From Betaproteobacteria bacterium (lineage in GTDB: Bacteria; Pseudomonadota; Gammaproteobacteria; Burkholderiales; SHXO01): a stretch of 53,231 bases of DNA. The position numbers were made by a program, and so were the translations under genes. The stretch covers positions 1-53,231 of the forward strand of contig SHXO01000009.1 of NCBI GenBank assembly GCA_009693245.1, given 5' to 3'. Below, piece after piece: positions 13,375-39,558 of the stretch (positions are counted from its first letter, which is position 1; every line of letters starts with the position of its first letter). The notes under the pieces are model-generated. The model was not told the DNA's origin. It worked only from the letters and a program-made list of their open reading frames with translations, and made no database searches.

Positions 13375-13884
13375 ATGCAGCAAACAGCTTGGGCGGTATC
13401 TTTGCTCTTGATGGCGGTCATTGTCGCAATCTTTATGTGGGTTGTATGGAACGCCTCGGCGAAATCCGCCGCTAGCGCTAGCCCCTACCGGTTAAGGGTT
13501 CCTTTGTTCTGGATCGCCCTCGCCGCCGGTGCTGTCATCGCATACCAGACGCTTACGCCATGGCCGCTGGTGGCACACGCCAAATCCGCCGCCGCCCCGG
13601 ATGTTGTGATCAAGGTCACCGGCCACCAGTGGCGCTGGGATCTGTCGCAGGACACGGTCCCCGCGGGGCAGGAAGTCGAGTTTCAGGTGACCAGCGCGGA
13701 TGTCAATCACGGCTTCGCCCTCTATAGGAACAAGACCCAACTCCTCACCCAAACCCAGGTGATGCCGGGATACGTGAATAAGCTGCGCTACACGTTCGCC
13801 GAGCCCGGCGAGTACGAAGTGCTCTGTCTTTAGTATTGCGGGGTGGCGCATCACGGCATGGCCGCCAAGATCATCGTGAAATAG
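13375..13884 (+). pseudogene. CuA-domain oxidase subunit II (NorS-like), interrupted by amber codon in the CuA site
   Basis: The frame encodes two N-terminal membrane helices (about residues 5-25 and 42-60) and a periplasmic cupredoxin domain with VTGHQWRWDL and NHGFALY (His112). The CuA loop should read C-L-E-Y-C-G-V-A-H-H-G-M, but the Glu codon is TAG (13831-13833): EVLCL, stop, then YCGVAHHGM, ending IIVK at the stop 13882-13884. All other CuA ligands (Cys151, Cys155, His159, Met162) are intact, so the change looks like a single GAG-to-TAG substitution. Without read-through the product lacks CuA. The next gene follows 11 bases after the second stop with a strong AGGAGG. The total length of about 169 residues fits small CuA subunits. 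Confidence 0.85.
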
Positions 13885-13895
13885 GAGGAGCGAAC

Positions 13896-15332
13896 ATGAA
13901 TACGGCAACGGCAAACACTTCCGGGGCGAAGCTCGCTTTTCAATCCTACGCGGGCACCGGCGTACTGGTGTTTCTTCTCATGATGCTGGCGGGTGCGGTA
14001 CTGCGCATGGCGCAAGGGACCTGGCTCGGTATTCCCGCTAACGTGTTTTATCAGATCATGACTCTGCACGGTGCGGGGATGGTGGGCACGGCCGGTCTCG
14101 CGGGTGCGGCGGTGATGTGGTATTTCCTGCGCAAGTACGTGAAGCTTTCCACGGGTATTTTCGTGACGATGCTCGTGCTGTCCTTGATTGGCGTGGTGAT
14201 GATCCTCGCGGCCATCTTGATCGGAGGCTTCGCGGCCGGATGGACTTTCTTGTTTCCGCTGCCCGCCAAGAGCAACGGCATGTGGAGTGCGCACGCCGCG
14301 GCTGGATATATCGGCGGATTACTCTTCATCGGCGTGGGTTTCTTGCTCTTCTACCTTGATTGCGCCATCGCCATAATCAAACGCCATGGCTCGCTGGTAA
14401 AGGGGCTTGGCCTGGACCAGCTATTCAGCGGCCGCATCGATACGGAACATCCGCCTACCGTGGTGGCGAGCACCATGGTGGCGATCATCAACATCCTGGG
14501 CATCCTGGCGGGCGCGGTGGTCTTGGTGATTTGCCTCGTCAATTTGTACGTGCCGTCTTTCGCGCTCGATGCGTTGTTGGTCAAGAACATGATCTTCTTC
14601 TTCGGCCACGTGTTCATCAACGCCACTATCTACATGGCGGTCATCGGCGTGTATGAGATCGTTCCCGCCTATACGGGGCGGCCGTGGAAGATTAGCCGTC
14701 CCTTCCTCGCCGCCTGGGCCGCCGTCACGCTGGTGGTACTCGCCGTTTATCCCCATCACACGCTGATGGACTTCGTCATGCCGCCTTGGGCATTGGTTCT
14801 TGGCCAAGTGCTCTCCTACGTGAGCGGTATTCCCGTGTTGCTGGTCACCACATGGGGCTTGCTTGCCAACATTCATCGCTCCGGCGTGAAATGGGATCTG
14901 CCGTTGCGACTGTTGGTGTTTTCGGTGCTGGGTTGGTCCATAGTGGTCATCCCTGCCATCGTGGATGCCACCATCCGCGTGAATCTTGTCATGCACAACA
15001 CCTTGTGGGTGCCGGGGCATTTCCATCTTTACCTGTTGCTGGGACTGCTGCCCATGTTGCTCGGCACCTTGTTCTACGCCACCACGCGCAACAACTGGCA
15101 AGAGAGCCGTGCCGACCAGGCGATGTTCTGGGTATACGGCGTGGCGGGCCTGGTGTTCTGCATGATGTTTCTGGCTGGAGGCGTGCAGAGTACGCCGCGC
15201 CGTTTCGCCGAGCACGCGACTGAGTGGGTGCCCTATGCCAAGACCGGCGCGGCCGCGGCGATTCTGGTGGTGATCTCGGCGCTGCATCTCGGCGCGAAGT
15301 TGCTCAGGCGTTTGCCTCACGCGGTGCTTTGA
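13896..15332 (+). CDS. Heme-copper oxidase subunit I, sNOR (NorY)-like
   Basis: This 478-residue protein has about 12 membrane helices. Metal ligands are complete: His58 (MTLHGAG) and His377 for the low-spin heme, His375 (VPGHFHLY) for the high-spin heme, and His238, His287 and His288 for CuB. In helix VI the family Tyr four residues after the CuB His is missing: the sequence is GHVFIN, with Asn at that place, so the His-Tyr cross-link of A- and B-type oxygen reductases cannot form there. Together with the gene order (CuA subunit, subunit I, SenC, membrane protein), this points to the sNOR group, proposed nitric-oxide reductases of ammonia oxidisers. The start ATG 13896 has AGGAGGAG upstream. 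An oxygen-reductase role is not excluded. Confidence 0.75.
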   Translation: MNTATANTSGAKLAFQSYAGTGVLVFLLMMLAGAVLRMAQGTWLGIPANVFYQIMTLHGAGMVGTAGLAGAAVMWYFLRKYVKLSTGIFVTMLVLSLIGVVMILAAILIGGFAAGWTFLFPLPAKSNGMWSAHAAAGYIGGLLFIGVGFLLFYLDCAIAIIKRHGSLVKGLGLDQLFSGRIDTEHPPTVVASTMVAIINILGILAGAVVLVICLVNLYVPSFALDALLVKNMIFFFGHVFINATIYMAVIGVYEIVPAYTGRPWKISRPFLAAWAAVTLVVLAVYPHHTLMDFVMPPWALVLGQVLSYVSGIPVLLVTTWGLLANIHRSGVKWDLPLRLLVFSVLGWSIVVIPAIVDATIRVNLVMHNTLWVPGHFHLYLLLGLLPMLLGTLFYATTRNNWQESRADQAMFWVYGVAGLVFCMMFLAGGVQSTPRRFAEHATEWVPYAKTGAAAAILVVISALHLGAKLLRRLPHAVL

Positions 15333-15339
15333 TCTCGAC

Positions 15340-15951
15340 GTGCCAGCAAGCACGCTTGCCACCGCTCTAGCTTTCGCCATTGCACTCGCCACGGCTCTCG
15401 GCGTTGGCGCGAGGGTCACGGACGGATTCCAGGCTTTCACGCTGGAGTCCGCCCGCCGCCTGGAAGCATTGCGTGCGCCACGCGCGGTCACTCACTTGGC
15501 GTTCGCGACACCGGAAGGCGAGCGCGTCCAACTTCAACGCTACGCCGGCCAGTGGGTGCTGGTGGATTTCATCTACACGGGTTGCCAGACGCTGTGCACT
15601 TCGCTCGGTTCCGTGTACGCGCAACTACAGCAACGCTTGGGCGGCGAGATTGCCTCTGGGCATGTGCGCTTGCTCTCGGTGAGTTTCGATCCCGCTCGCG
15701 ACGCCGCCGCGCAACTATTGGCGTACCGGGCGCGTCACAGCGTATCGGCCCTAGGATGGGACATGGCGCGTCCTTCCTTGGAGGACCTGCAGGATTGGTT
15801 CGGCTCGTTCGGTGTGGTGGTTATCCCCGATGGGGCTGGCGGCTTTGCGCACAATGCGGCGATCCACGTCGTCAATCCCGAGGGACGCCTGCAAGCGATT
15901 GCCAATGTGGGAGATACCGAGGAGGCGATTCGCCATGTTCGGCCGCGTTAA
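15340..15951 (+). CDS. senC: SCO1/SenC copper chaperone
   Basis: This 203-residue membrane-anchored thioredoxin-fold protein delivers copper to the CuA centre. A hydrophobic N-terminal segment (LATALAFAIALATALGVGA) is followed by DFIYTGCQTLCTSLG, the CxxxC copper motif (Cys82, Cys86), and the third ligand His171 in FAHNAAIHVV. It begins with GTG 7 bases after the subunit I stop, so it is co-transcribed with it. It overlaps the next gene by 17 bases. It looks intact, although its client subunit carries a stop codon. Confidence 0.85.
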   Translation: MPASTLATALAFAIALATALGVGARVTDGFQAFTLESARRLEALRAPRAVTHLAFATPEGERVQLQRYAGQWVLVDFIYTGCQTLCTSLGSVYAQLQQRLGGEIASGHVRLLSVSFDPARDAAAQLLAYRARHSVSALGWDMARPSLEDLQDWFGSFGVVVIPDGAGGFAHNAAIHVVNPEGRLQAIANVGDTEEAIRHVRPR

Positions 15952-16531
15952 TCCACGAACCGCGGGAATGTGCGCCCTGTTCTTGTGGGCGGTGCTTTTT
16001 CTACCGCCCCTGAGAAACTGGTTCGAGGCATCCATGTTTCGCCACATGATCCTGCAATTTCCCCTACTCATCGCCATTGGATGGATCTTGGGAAGGCGAA
16101 TAGCGCATCATCCCGTGACCGGGCGCCTGCAACTTGCAAACCGCTGGGGCGCTACTGGACTGCTCATCGCCACCGCCACCATGACACTGTGGATGTTGCC
16201 CAGCACGCTGGACAGCGCGCGCTTGGACATCTTGTGGGACGCCACCAAGTTTCTGAGCGTACCGCTGCTCGCGGGAAGCGCGACCTCCCTATCGTGGTAT
16301 CGATGCCCTCCCATAGCGCGCGGCGTCATCCATGTTGAGATCGTTGCCACCTTCATGCGCTTTGGCTGGGCCTACCTCGCCACCGATGAGCGCCTTTGCC
16401 TCGCCTATCTACTGGGCGACCAGCAGCGAACTGGAACCGCGCTATGCTCGATCGGCGCGATGTGGGGTGTGGCCGCGATCTGGCGGCCTGTGTTCGGACC
16501 GGCTCGGGGCAAGGAATACTACGTCACGTGA
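15935..16531 (+). CDS. Membrane protein following senC (sNOR-cluster orf1-like)
   Basis: The ATG at 15935, preceded by GAGGAGG, gives 198 residues with several hydrophobic helices (for example MILQFPLLIAIGWILG and GATGLLIATATMTLWMLPS) and His residues in HHPVT and VIHVEI. It starts inside the end of senC, so the two are translationally coupled. Its position matches the unnamed orf1 of norSY-senC-orf1 clusters. A role in assembly of the copper or heme sites is an inference from position only. A longer upstream frame overlaps senC fully and is not used. Confidence 0.65.
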   Translation: MFGRVNPRTAGMCALFLWAVLFLPPLRNWFEASMFRHMILQFPLLIAIGWILGRRIAHHPVTGRLQLANRWGATGLLIATATMTLWMLPSTLDSARLDILWDATKFLSVPLLAGSATSLSWYRCPPIARGVIHVEIVATFMRFGWAYLATDERLCLAYLLGDQQRTGTALCSIGAMWGVAAIWRPVFGPARGKEYYVT

Positions 16532-18098: not shown

Positions 18099-19097
18099 TT
18101 ACGCTGACAGCCGAAAATCCACCGCCGGAGGTCGTCCGGCTATCGTGAGCCGCGAGTGTGCCGGAGCGCTGCGAGCGATGACTTGTCCGCGCCTCATCAC
18201 CAGCAGCCTTTGAGCGCGCAGCCGAATCGCTTCAATGGGATTGCGTGCATCGAGTACGACCAGATCCGCATGGCATCCCGGTGCAATGCCGTAGCCATCC
18301 AGTCCGAGAATACGCGCCGGAGTTTCGGTCACCGCGGCGAAGCACGCGGCCATGGCTTCTTGTCCAGTCATCTGCGCCACATGCAGGCCCATGTGGGCCA
18401 CCTCCAGCATATCGCCCGAGCCAAGGCTGTACCAAGGGTCCATCACGCAGTCGTGACCGAAGGCCACGGCAATGCCGGCGGCGAGCATTTCCGGCACGCG
18501 CGTCATACCGCGCCGCTTCGGATAAGTATCGTGGCGTCCCTGAATGGTGATGTTGATGAGCGGATTGGCCACCACTGACACGCCGGCTTCCTTGATGAGT
18601 GGAAGCAGCTTGGACACATAGTAGTTGTCCATGGAGTGCATGGAGGTCAAGTGCGATCCGGTCACGCGCCCCTGCAACCCTAAGCGCTGCGCATGGTCGG
18701 GTTCCTGGATGTAGTTGTCGAACACGGAAAAGTTCGGCGCCTGAGGCTTGCCCGAAGAACCCATGAGGAAGGAAATCTTCGGGTAACTCTTGGCGGCTTT
18801 GCGTGCGGCGGCTTCCACCGCGAAGGATTCTCCCACGATCAACTGATGTCCCGCCTCGGCATACTGGCGCAGCACCCTTTCGTAATCCGCGTTGGCCACG
18901 CTTTCGGAGAAGACTTATTCGATGTCTCCACGCGACTGCGCGGCGTTCAGCGCTTTGTGAATGCGGCTCACCCACTGCTGCTCCACGGGGACCGTGTAGA
19001 TGGCGGCCACTTTGATCTTGGCTTGCGCGCGCAGCCCGCCGGAAAGTCCCAGGGCGGTAGCGGCTATGAGTAAATTGATAAGTGCTCTCTTGTTCAT
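18099..19097 (-). pseudogene. Chimera: BMP-family solute-binding protein fused to cytosine deaminase C-terminus, with in-frame stop
   Basis: From ATG 19097 the frame starts MNKRALINLLIAATALGLSG, a signal peptide, then KIKVAAIYTVPVEQQWVSRI, the start of BMP/Med-type ABC receptors for nucleosides or purines. At 18915-18917 a TAA interrupts DIE-stop-VFSESVANADYE. The frame continues through SFLMGSSGKPQAPNFSVFDN to about 18700 and then changes, without a frameshift, to the C-terminal half of cytosine deaminase: TGSHLTSMHSMDNYYVSKLL, PLINITIQGRHDTYPKRRGM and FGHDCVMDPWYSLGSGDMLE. The deaminase HxH metal motif is missing, so it cannot be active. An internal deletion most likely removed the rest of an ABC-importer/codA operon. 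Confidence 0.85.
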
Positions 19098-19153
19098 TTT
19101 TCCTACGTTAGACAATTGGACTGCCTCGGTTAGACCGCCTCGCTTAGACCACT

Positions 19154-20398
19154 TCAGTTGGCCACGCCGGCTCGTTCCAGAACCGCGTGCAGTAACACGT
19201 TACATCCCGCTTCGATGTGCTCGGCTTTCGCATCTTCAATTTCGTTGTGACTGATGCCGTCCTTGCACGGAATGAAAATCATACCAGCGGGTGCCAAGCG
19301 TGCCATGAAGATGGCATCGTGGCCAGGTCCCGATATCGTGGGCATGTTGGAGTAACCAAGTTTCTCGGTGGCGCGCCGCACGGCGCCGATGCAAGCCTCG
19401 TGGAAGGGCACGGGTGGGTAGTAGGACACTTCTTTCAACTCGATGGGCAATCCCGTGTCCTTGCCTACTCTGGCCATGAAGGCGCGCAGGTCCGCGTCCA
19501 TGCGGTTGTGGGTGTCTTTTTCTGGATGGCGAAAATCGATGGAAAACTTCACTTGCCCAGGGATGACGTTGCGGCTGTTGGGGAAAACCTGCACGAAGCC
19601 CACGGTGCCGCGCCCGTTGGGGGCATAACGGTTGGCGATGGCCACCACTTCCTGCATGATGCGGGTTGCGGCTTGCAACGCATCCTTGCGGGTTTCCATG
19701 GGCGTGGAACCCGCGTGAGATTCCAAGCCGGTGACGATGCAGTCGTACCAGCGCAGCCCCATCACCGCTTCCACCACGCCGATCACTTTGTCGTTGGCTT
19801 CCAGCACGGGGCCTTGCTCGATGTGCGCCTCGAAGTAGGCGCCGATGGGATGTTGGCCAGGTTCCTCGGTTCCGACGTAACCGATGCGGGCGAGTTCCTC
19901 CTTCACGGTTTTACCGTTCACGTCCTTGGAGTTGTAGGCGTGCTCCAAGGTGAAGTCCTTGCAGAACACGCCCGAGCCCATCATCACCGGCACGAAGCGC
20001 GAGCCTTCTTCATTGGTCCAGAAGATGACTTCCAAAGGCGCTTCGGTTTGCACCTTGGCGTCGTTCAATGCGCGCATCACTTCAAGCCCCGCCAGCACGC
20101 CGTAGTTGCCATCGAACTTGCCCCCCGTCGGTTGCGTGTCGATGTGGCTGCCCATGCAGATGGGCGGCTTACTGTTATCGCGGCCCGGGCGGCGCATGAA
20201 GCAGTTGCCGATCTTATCGATGGTGATTTGCAGCCCCGCTGCCTTGGCCCAAGACACGACGAGATCGCGCCCCTGTTTATCCAAATCGGTGAGGGCCAGG
20301 CGGCATACGCCGCCCTTGGGCGTGGCGCCGATCTTGGCCAGTTCCATGAGCGAATCCCACAGGCGCTGGCCGTTGATGCTCAATGTATCTGTGCGCAT
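19154..20398 (-). CDS. M20-family N-carbamoyl amino acid amidohydrolase (HyuC/AmaB/beta-ureidopropionase type)
   Basis: This 414-residue dinuclear metal hydrolase opens ureido bonds of N-carbamoyl amino acids, beta-ureidopropionate or allantoate. Metal-site motifs are MGSHIDTQPTGGKFDGNYGV, WTNEEGSRF, and the C-terminal GPGHDAIFMARLAPAGMIFI and GISHNEIE. ATG 20398 has AGGAG at the right distance. It lies 8 bases downstream of the cofE stop (20407), so it may be the last gene of that transcript. Its neighbour on the other side is the BMP/CodA chimera, which suggests a former pyrimidine or hydantoin breakdown set. Exact substrate unknown. Confidence 0.9.
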   Translation of the reverse strand: MRTDTLSINGQRLWDSLMELAKIGATPKGGVCRLALTDLDKQGRDLVVSWAKAAGLQITIDKIGNCFMRRPGRDNSKPPICMGSHIDTQPTGGKFDGNYGVLAGLEVMRALNDAKVQTEAPLEVIFWTNEEGSRFVPVMMGSGVFCKDFTLEHAYNSKDVNGKTVKEELARIGYVGTEEPGQHPIGAYFEAHIEQGPVLEANDKVIGVVEAVMGLRWYDCIVTGLESHAGSTPMETRKDALQAATRIMQEVVAIANRYAPNGRGTVGFVQVFPNSRNVIPGQVKFSIDFRHPEKDTHNRMDADLRAFMARVGKDTGLPIELKEVSYYPPVPFHEACIGAVRRATEKLGYSNMPTISGPGHDAIFMARLAPAGMIFIPCKDGISHNEIEDAKAEHIEAGCNVLLHAVLERAGVAN

Positions 20399-30427: not shown

Positions 30428-30860
30428 GGCATGCAAAGTGAATGTCGAGGCGTAATCATCGCATATCAGCCCTTGCGCGGCTTTTCCGCAGCATAGAGTT
30501 TTAACGGCCTTCCAGTCCACTTGGATGCGGCTGCCTTGAACCTGATTACCCTATTTCCTGCTGAGGTCCCGGCATTGCATCTGCGTGGCCGGGGCATCTT
30601 TGCGGGTATTGGCATCCGCACGAAGATCTGCCCAGCGGTAGTCGCGCGGATCGCGCAAGGGGGCCGCAGTTTTTGCCACGCTGACTAATGTATCGCGGCG
30701 GCCCTCAGCCGCGCACGGCGAAGTATGGCATTAGTTCTTCACCCAGCGTAGCATTGTACAAATGTGGTCTGTCCTATTTCGGATCATAGTCCGCGCTCAC
30801 TGCAAAGAAGGCTTATGTCGGTACAATCTCCGCTCACAGACTTTGTTTTTCCGCAAACCT
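30428..30860. other. Intergenic stretch, no gene recognised
   Basis: This 430-base divergent spacer lies between the alpha/beta hydrolase and the Uma2-like gene. No frame gives a recognisable protein, and no clear promoter or terminator was seen. Confidence 0.4.
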
Positions 30861-31460
30861 ATGGGATACGCCCGCAAAGCCGCCGCCTTCTTGACCGCCG
30901 ACGAGTATCTGGCGCTGGAAACGCGTGCCCGCACCAAGCACGAGTATCTCGAAGGGGTGATCTATGCTTGGCAAGGGCAAGTACCGGAAAGCATGGCTGG
31001 GGGTTCTCGTGCCCACCATCGCATTTCGCTCAACATCGCCACGGCGCTGAACGCGGCGTTGCAGGGCACTCCTCGCGCACCCTACATGGCGGACATGCGG
31101 TTGCGGGTCGCCGCCGCCGCGGGCCGCACCGAGACCGCGTATTTCTATCCGGACGTTTTGTCCATTGCGGGCCGCCGCTCCCAGCGCAAGCAACCGAGAT
31201 TGAAAATCCAAAACTGCTCATCGAAGTGCTGTCACCTAGCACCGAGGAATTCGACCGCACGGAAAAGTTCGCGGTCTACGGCACGATCGCGAACCTCGAG
31301 GAATTGGTGTTCGTCAATTCGCACCCACCATACGGCATCGAGGTCTATCGCCGGGGGGGTGGACGGGTCACTCGTCCTCATCGAATCCGGCGATGCGAAA
31401 TTGCCGTTGGCAAGCGCCGGCGTCACTATGACGCGAGGGGCCGTGTTAGCCGGAGTGTAA
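30861..31460 (+). pseudogene. Uma2-family nuclease-like protein (DUF820) with two frameshifts
   Basis: The first part, MGYARKAAAFLTADEYLALE and TRARTKHEYLEGVIYAW, is a Uma2 N-terminus. The frame then moves at a T run near 31155 (GTTTTG), after which the second frame gives IENPKLLIEVLSPSTEEFDR and IANLEELVFVNSHPPYGIEV. At a G7 run near 31350 it returns to the first frame (VDGSLVLIESGDAKLPLASA). Restoring one base at each run gives a continuous protein of normal length ending AVLAGV. Uma2 proteins have a PD-(D/E)xK nuclease-like fold of unclear role. Because both lesions lie in homopolymers, they may be base-calling errors. Confidence 0.75.
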
Positions 31461-31601
31461 GGTGGCTATGAGCAGATAGCGCGTCATGTGCCGCGCCTCC
31501 CTTCCAGATCATCGGTAATCGGCCGGTGATTCGCAGCTCACCCCTGGCCGGTTCAAATTGCGCGAGAATAATCCCTCGTTAAATCCCACGCTGAGTGCCC
31601 C

Positions 31602-37618: not shown

Positions 37619-38764
37619 ATGCCAGTACTGTTATCGGAACGCACTCGAAACCTGCATGCCTCGCCCATCCGCGAGATCCTGGCCGTCATCGAGCGGCCGG
37701 GCATGATCTCATTCGCCGGCGGATTGCCAGCGCCGGAAACGTTTCCGGGCATCAATCCCGGCGAGATCCCCGCGAACTATCTGCAATACGGGCCCACGGA
37801 AGGGGAGCCGGCACTGCGCTCCCGTGTGGCCGAAGAGCTCGGAAAATTGGGAATGAAGTGCACGGCGGAGCAAGTGCTGATTCTTTCCGGCTCGCAGCAA
37901 GGCATCGATCTCGCCGGCAAGCTCTTCGTGGACGCCGGTACGCCGGTCGCGGTGGAATCCCCTACCTATCTCGCCGCTCTGCAAGTGTTGCGGTACTTTG
38001 GCGCGCGCTTCGTTTCCTTCGGTCCCGGCGCCATGGAGGCCGGCGCTCTGGAACACTCCCAAGCCCGCTTAGCCTACATCATCCCGACCTTTCAGAATCC
38101 AACGGGATATTGTTATTCGGCACGGCAGCGCGATGCCCTGGCGGCAGCCTGCGATGCCGCCGAAGTGGTGTTGTTAGAGGACGACCCTTACCGCGATTTG
38201 GTCTATGAGGCGTGCGACCGAACACCGGTGTGCGCACGGCTCGAGCGCGCATCGTGGATCTACCAAGGTTCGTTCTCGAAGAGTTTCGCGCCGGGATTGC
38301 GTCTGGGCTTCCTGGCCGCGTCCGCGGATCTCGTGCCCCATCTCACGCGGCTCAAGCAAGCCGCCGATTTGCACAGCAACCGAATCAGCCAATGGCTGGT
38401 GTTGCAAGATTTGAACAATCCCGGGCGCGGGGAGCGCTTGCATGGCTTAGACGCCACTTATCTACGCAAGCGCAATGCTTTCGATCATGCTTTGCGGTGT
38501 TACATGAGTGACTTGGCCACGTGGCAAGCACCGCCCGGCGGATTGTTCTTCTGGCTCGCTCTCAAATACAGGATCGATACTCGCAGCCTACTGTCCCAGG
38601 CGATAGAGCGCGGTGCGGCCTTCATGCCCGGAGAGGCGTTCTATCCCGAGGAGGGTGAAGGCCTGGGTACCATGCGGCTAAATTTCAGCCACGCCTGCGC
38701 GGAGGATGCTCACCGAGGGCTCGGCATCTTAGCCCAGTTACTTCACGAGACCTACCCGGCCTAG
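37619..38764 (+). CDS. PLP-dependent aminotransferase (2-aminoadipate aminotransferase type)
   Basis: This 381-residue fold-type I enzyme has MISFAGGLPAPETFPG, QYGPTEGEPALRSRVAEEL, AEQVLILSGSQQGIDLAGKL, IIPTFQNPTGYCYSARQRDA and the PLP lysine in IYQGSFSKSFAPGLRLGFL. GGAGG stands 6 bases before ATG 37619. It resembles LysN/2-aminoadipate or aromatic aminotransferases. It is under the MarR-type operator just upstream and is paralogous to the enzyme at 35075-36304. Confidence 0.9.
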   Translation: MPVLLSERTRNLHASPIREILAVIERPGMISFAGGLPAPETFPGINPGEIPANYLQYGPTEGEPALRSRVAEELGKLGMKCTAEQVLILSGSQQGIDLAGKLFVDAGTPVAVESPTYLAALQVLRYFGARFVSFGPGAMEAGALEHSQARLAYIIPTFQNPTGYCYSARQRDALAAACDAAEVVLLEDDPYRDLVYEACDRTPVCARLERASWIYQGSFSKSFAPGLRLGFLAASADLVPHLTRLKQAADLHSNRISQWLVLQDLNNPGRGERLHGLDATYLRKRNAFDHALRCYMSDLATWQAPPGGLFFWLALKYRIDTRSLLSQAIERGAAFMPGEAFYPEEGEGLGTMRLNFSHACAEDAHRGLGILAQLLHETYPA

Positions 38765-38790
38765 GCCGGGTAGGTAATGGGAGACATCGC

Positions 38791-39558
38791 ATGAAACCTG
38801 TCGATTTCGGAAAGACCGCGGCGGACTACGGCAAGCACCGCGCTGGATTTCCGCCGGAGTTTTATTGGGAGCTTGCACGCCATGGCATCGGTGTGTCGGG
38901 ACAGCGCGTGGTTGATCTTGGCACTGGCACTGGAACCATCGCGCGCCAGCTTGCTCTGGGCGGATGCGACGTCACCGCCATCGATATTTCAGAGAACATG
39001 CTGGCGCAGGCCAAGCAGCTCGATGACTAAGCAGGCGCCGGTGCCCGTTACTTAAAAGGACAAGCGGAGGATACGGGCTTGGAGGGCGCAAGTTACGATG
39101 TCGTGACCGCGGGACAATGCTGGCATTGGTTCGACCGGTCGCGCGCCGCGGCCGAGGCCCTTCGCATTCTGCGGGCGGGCGGCCGCTTGGTGATCGCGCA
39201 CTTCGATTGGTTACCGCTCGCCGGAAGCGTAGTGCAGCTAACGGAGCAACTCATTTTGAAACACAGTCCGCAATGGCAATTGTCAGGAGGAGTGGGGATT
39301 CATCCGCGTTTCATGCCGGCCCTCTCGGAGATTGGTTTTCAAGGATTGCGCACTTTCAGTTTCGACACCGATGCCCTGTATTCCCATGAAGCGTGGCTTG
39401 GCCGGGTGCGTGCAAGCGCTGGAATAGGCCCCGTGCTGAGTGAGAGCAAGGTTAGAGACTTCGATGATGAACACCGCTTAGCGCTGGCCAGCCGGTTTCC
39501 GGGCGATCCTTTGCATGTGCCGCACCGCGTGTGGGCTGTGATCGCACATCGACCTTAG
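38791..39558 (+). pseudogene. Class I SAM methyltransferase with one in-frame stop
   Basis: The frame reads MKPVDFGKTAADYGKHRAGF, RVVDLGTGTGTIARQLALG, ISENMLAQAKQLDD, then TAA (39028-39030), then AGAGARYLKGQAEDTGLEGA and YDVVTAGQCWHWFDRSRAAA, ending IAHRP. Both parts belong to one ubiE/SmtA-like methyltransferase, and the frame is not shifted. A single substitution would restore a 255-residue protein. If the stop is real, the first part holds the SAM loop but lacks the rest, so activity is unlikely. Confidence 0.8.

Follow-up and report, generated by a model that had tools for sequence, protein, structure and literature searches.

The norS reading frame and its operon

The window, by which we mean the whole stretch of DNA analysed (53,231 nucleotides), lies on contig 9 of a 130-contig draft assembly (3.00 Mb, 97% complete). 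At positions 13375-13884 of the forward strand it carries norS, which encodes subunit II, the CuA-domain subunit, of a heme-copper enzyme of the sNOR type and whose product matches Pfam COX2. The gene comprises 169 codons and is open apart from the TAG that ends it (13882-13884) and one internal TAG at codon 153 (13831-13833), so that the initial annotation was right to describe an amber codon with the frame intact on either side. The ligand codons and the downstream stop are preserved, as had also been claimed: His112, Cys151, Cys155, His159 and Met162, which we take to be the CuA ligands, are all encoded in the norS frame, the last three of them in the 16 codons that follow the internal stop (13834-13881, forward strand). 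The Pfam COX2 match (residues 95-163) crosses the stop. Under translation table 11, NorS would lack a complete CuA site, since the stop, located between Cys151 and Cys155, precedes the second cysteine.

The Glu between the CuA cysteines binds copper through its backbone carbonyl, a ligand position at which several residues would be tolerated. A stop can be reached from the other 168 codons of norS by 60 different single-step changes; if all routes are taken as equal, a random one-step nonsense change strikes the CuA-site Glu about once in 61 cases and falls within the CuA loop (codons 151-162) in about five of 61. Given these 60 alternative routes, the coincidence of the stop with the CuA Glu is only mild.

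Downstream on the same strand, norY (13896-15332) encodes the heme-copper subunit I and contains no stop, and senC (15340-15951) is an open frame with a SCO1/SenC copper chaperone domain, in agreement with the earlier claim that both genes are intact. NorY has all seven histidines that are conserved at 95% in 78 relatives, and it departs from the consensus at two of the 94 positions conserved at that level (median for the other rows 1, maximum 9). One of the two departures is Val at codon 350, a position occupied by Gly in 78 of 78 relatives. The hydrophobic open frame after senC (15935-16531, forward strand) is called orf1 by its position. A longer open frame in the same place (15812-16531) had no match in either Pfam or NCBIfam, and two short pieces of the frame could be aligned to the closest relative.

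The order of CuA subunit, subunit I, SenC and orf1, the last assigned by position alone, matches that of sNOR and justifies the label NorS-like given to the gene at the outset. Passages describing the norSY-senC-orf1 (sNOR) operon of ammonia-oxidising bacteria present the role of the enzyme as disputed, either as a NO reductase or as a high-affinity B-type oxidase (PMC4940428, PMC3772326, PMC6967387). The window shares with the operon of ammonia oxidisers the order of its first three genes and differs from it in that its CuA subunit is interrupted and its orf1 is named by position. Elsewhere in the assembly the search turned up a single further COX1-family subunit, so that no second NorB-type enzyme was found that might stand in for sNOR.

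Comparison with related loci

A NorY scan of named genomes returned 109 loci, of which 80 were kept. The CuA motif was seen once in 79 of these (the remaining locus starts inside norY; another, L047, contains just the 3' end of norS), and the position of codon 153 is Glu in all 79 readable loci (GAA in 40, GAG in 39), with TAG in none. The placement of the amber codon at the CuA-site Glu, as first proposed, is thereby borne out. Glu was also present in 7 of 7 loci with the same gene order, a set that overlaps partly with the 79. The closest relative, a betaproteobacterial MAG chromosome whose NorY and NorS are 77% and 62% identical to those of the window, has GAA at this codon. In a first search of the NorS protein against 60 relatives, an internal stop was seen only in the window's own copy among the matches listed. 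Among the 29 NorS positions with at least 90% conservation, the stop is the only one at which the window protein departs; the other 28 are retained. Together with the near-normal norY, this argues that the norS lesion is single and young, or else not real.

No norY match was found at E 1e-40 in the three congeners, two of which are just 68% and 78% complete. The best solved relatives of the window NorS are the Thermus CuA domains and subunit II of ba3 oxidase (6ptt, 2lln, 2cua, 1ehk), which are uninterrupted, unlike the window protein. In the alignment row of 2lln, a Thermus CuA domain, the interrupted position is Gln; Glu is thus the residue of the family considered here and is not universal in CuA. 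An interrupted NorS was named in no title among those listed from the open-licence literature.

Other interrupted genes in the assembly

We searched the window and 60 stretches of 20 kb (1,253,231 bases, 42% of the assembly), a non-random sample drawn from the starts of the largest contigs, for in-frame stops flanked on either side by coding signal. The scan flagged 131 sites, most of which, judged by eye, are neighbouring genes. A first codon-score scan had lacked specificity, passing 436 of 2502 sites, and a Viterbi scan of the sample reported zero nonsense sites; the latter was blind to them because leaving and re-entering a gene cost less than crossing a stop.

From the flagged sites we chose 31 suspect proteins for Pfam, and three more went to NCBIfam only, where the stop was not spanned. 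In 20 of the 31, one domain match spans the stop, which is TAG in 14, TAA in 4 and TGA in 2. The genes with TAG encode NorS, a Baeyer-Villiger-type monooxygenase, PabB, an outer membrane protein, LplT (below the Pfam cut-off, above that of NCBIfam), a T2SSE-family ATPase, a met-zincin, an RNA-specificity metallo-hydrolase, a 23S IVP protein, UbiD, a class II aldolase, a HDOD protein whose stop lies just 4 residues within its domain match, a GGDEF protein and a DUF4184 protein. Those with TAA encode an acyl-CoA ligase, a BMP remnant, an AAA_22 ATPase and a methyltransferase, and those with TGA encode MscL and an aldehyde dehydrogenase. Two of these genes share the window with norS. The methyltransferase gene (38659-39555, forward strand) has an in-frame TAA at 39028 within its domain, and a remnant of a BMP-type substrate-binding protein (18102-19199, reverse strand, TAA at 18915) is fused in frame to the C-terminal half of a cytosine deaminase. 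In the other 11 suspects the stop was not spanned (L164 1961-4195; L165 18356-19999; L162 10691-10981; a DegQ-like protein, L264 16303-17424; the end of HsdM, L161; a cyclase, L242; a porin, L246; L273; L262; L265; L264 4157-4618). UbiD, HsdM, LplT and MscL are named from family matches, and the labels DegQ-like, ExeA-type and iron-sulphur loop are ones that we presume to apply.

Codon scores pointed to 94 frameshift-like points, of which 15 were taken for coordinates and 11, in nine genes, were submitted to Pfam. Adjoining parts of one profile were found in two frames in five of the nine: an IlvD/Edd-type dehydratase (whose upstream profile part is weak, 18.9 bits), an S41 protease, a Uma2-family protein, a short-chain dehydrogenase and an altronate dehydratase. 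The Uma2-family gene is in the window (30735-31468, forward strand), with its frameshift near 31192. For two suspects (L163, L174) the downstream piece alone matched Pfam, and a third (L162) had no match. Several genes are damaged more than once. HsdM shows successive profile parts across alternating frames, in LplT codon scores place a frame switch in addition to its TAG, and the met-zincin gene has two TAGs, one within a domain and one between two domains. No stops were seen in rpoC, prfA or mutM.

The same stop scan of 400 kb of the congener G002, trained on 83 homology-supported open reading frames, flagged 18 raw sites before any Pfam step. GC content is 0.596 in the sample of the present genome versus 0.684 in those 400 kb of its congener. 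An earlier frameshift filter on the Viterbi scan ran against a reading as decay, with one site in this genome and 9 in G002; the G002 model was trained on the longest open reading frames, largely antisense, and because a badly trained filter gave the higher count we make no claim on relative frameshift rates. In the 42% of the assembly covered by this non-random sample, the many interrupted genes, some with several lesions, correspond to what is expected of a decaying, pseudogene-rich genome. That stops and frameshifts occur side by side with fused remnants and multiply damaged genes suggests real decay, and substitution errors alone would account for it less well.

mutY and the mutation spectrum

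Among the broken genes is mutY (stretch L200, contig 56, 9000-12500), which has a frameshift and, further on, an in-frame TAG, and which is thus predicted to be inactive. Eleven of 12 relatives have an uninterrupted mutY, among them all three congeners, and in the remaining one (G009, 68% complete) the match was only partial. The mutM gene is intact in the present genome. Loss of mutY is expected to produce G:C>T:A changes, and the norS TAG is reachable from GAG by such a change. In PDB alignments the residues at two other interruptions are Glu and Ser, both of which fit G:C>T:A, and the PabB site has Ser in one relative and Arg in the best hit.

No excess of G:C>T:A was found in rpoC on this branch, where it accounts for 4 of 41 private changes; the two congeners compared had 4 of 47 and 5 of 22. 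We used this three-congener tally; G003 had no rpoC, G013 was excluded as truncated, and when all genomes were tallied, most had between 0 and 12 private changes and two, apparently misaligned, had 68 and 99. A model in which all changes are G:C>T:A predicts TAG at about 0.37 of stops, and the observed 14 of 20 exceeds this share (P 0.003). Codon usage predicts a share of 0.47 to 0.51, against which 14 of 20 is slightly high (P 0.03 to 0.07), an excess that is unexplained. A pure G:C>T:A mutator as the sole cause is thus unsupported by rpoC and by the mix of stops, and we regard a mutator effect of the mutY loss as at best a contributing idea.

The published accounts of decaying genomes that served as comparators concern Sodalis symbionts of lice (PMC11137140) and symbionts of vesicomyid clams (PMC5310779). 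Both share with the present genome many inactivations, a lower GC content and the loss of mutY. The Sodalis set has lost MutY or MutM and never both (PMC11137140), which parallels the broken mutY and whole mutM here. A point of difference is the 3.00 Mb size of the present genome.

Alternative explanations for the norS stop

The initial annotation had left open a fresh null, a sequencing error and read-through. A recent null fits best, because the assembly has many interrupted genes with all three kinds of stop as well as frameshifts. If instead the consensus or the assembly were wrong at 13831, the organism would have a sense codon there and an intact norS. We consider this unlikely, yet it is the reading to which the draft state of the assembly lends itself, as the draft is in 130 contigs and has 2500 N within the initial 453 kb of the sample. 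The good conservation of norS outside the stop and the absence of a stop from norY would suit it as well. The same is true of the many lesions that are single in otherwise intact genes, some of which are expected to be kept (UbiD, the IlvD/Edd-type dehydratase); these count against a null and would also suit an error-rich consensus. On the other hand, nonsense and frameshift lesions are both present, one window site is a fusion of two gene remnants, and rpoC, prfA and mutM are clean. Genes with two or more lesions (mutY, HsdM, LplT and the met-zincin) are badly explained by isolated base errors and favour decay. A further point against a null is that sNOR would be lost with no backup from another NorB-type enzyme found in the assembly.

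Read-through, in which a suppressor tRNA or leaky termination would let the TAG be decoded and a full CuA subunit be made, found little support and seems to us very improbable. It would account for the conservation of the sequence beyond the stop, and the high share of TAG among the Pfam-spanned stops, compared with the roughly half given by codon usage, points the same way, as does the stop in mutY, outside the 20 and likewise TAG. A backbone ligand would moreover accept several residues. Against it, none of the 33 tRNAs found has a CTA anticodon, which is weak evidence since tRNAs for Tyr, Asn and Ile-GAT were not found either and the set is therefore incomplete. Further, prfA, encoding release factor 1, is intact, and TAG terminates 82 of 265 homology-supported open reading frames (TGA 101, TAA 82), some of these perhaps cut by lesions. 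Frames that end in TAG do not have another stop in the next 10 codons more often (20 of 82) than frames with other terminators (53 of 183). Hence TAG is neither avoided nor backed up, and release factor 1 is not lost, as would be the case in a recoded organism. The absence of TAG from this codon in all 79 readable related loci also speaks against decoding. The residues expected at interrupted sites differ (Glu, Ser), unlike the pattern of one reassigned codon, and with the intact prfA and TAG as a common terminator they make reassignment of TAG unlikely. There is comparably little to favour a leakiness of UAG throughout this presumably betaproteobacterial lineage, owing to an overlooked suppressor tRNA or to weak release factor 1 activity, under which in-frame TAGs would build up in working genes and sNOR, UbiD, the T2SSE-family ATPase and others would be made by partial read-through. 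The codon before the stop and the stop itself read CTT TAG, which resembles a slip site of the prfB type. A programmed frameshift here is nevertheless hardly credible, and as a route to CuA it is excluded: the +1 frame reads SIAGWRITAWPPRSS and then ends, and the -1 frame likewise has no CuA motif.

A probable recent null in a decaying genome

Judging from the reading frames and their relatives, norS is probably a recent, real null, that is, a pseudogene in a decaying genome. We propose that a single nonsense change converted the Glu codon between the CuA cysteines to TAG in the living lineage. Release factor 1 would terminate there and yield a NorS of 152 residues that lacks the second Cys, the second His and the Met of CuA. 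With the CuA site gone, NorY would receive no electrons from cytochrome c, and the sNOR complex would thus be dead despite intact norY and senC. The norS lesion would then be one of many inactivations under relaxed selection, in a lineage also short of the repair gene mutY, whose loss may have contributed.

As a biochemical or coding novelty, the norS stop is ordinary. If it is real, sNOR has been caught in the middle of its loss, with its partner genes still whole, mutY broken and no other NorB-type enzyme found. A survey of gene presence based on norY only would count sNOR as present, and the lineage would offer a useful early stage of genome decay.
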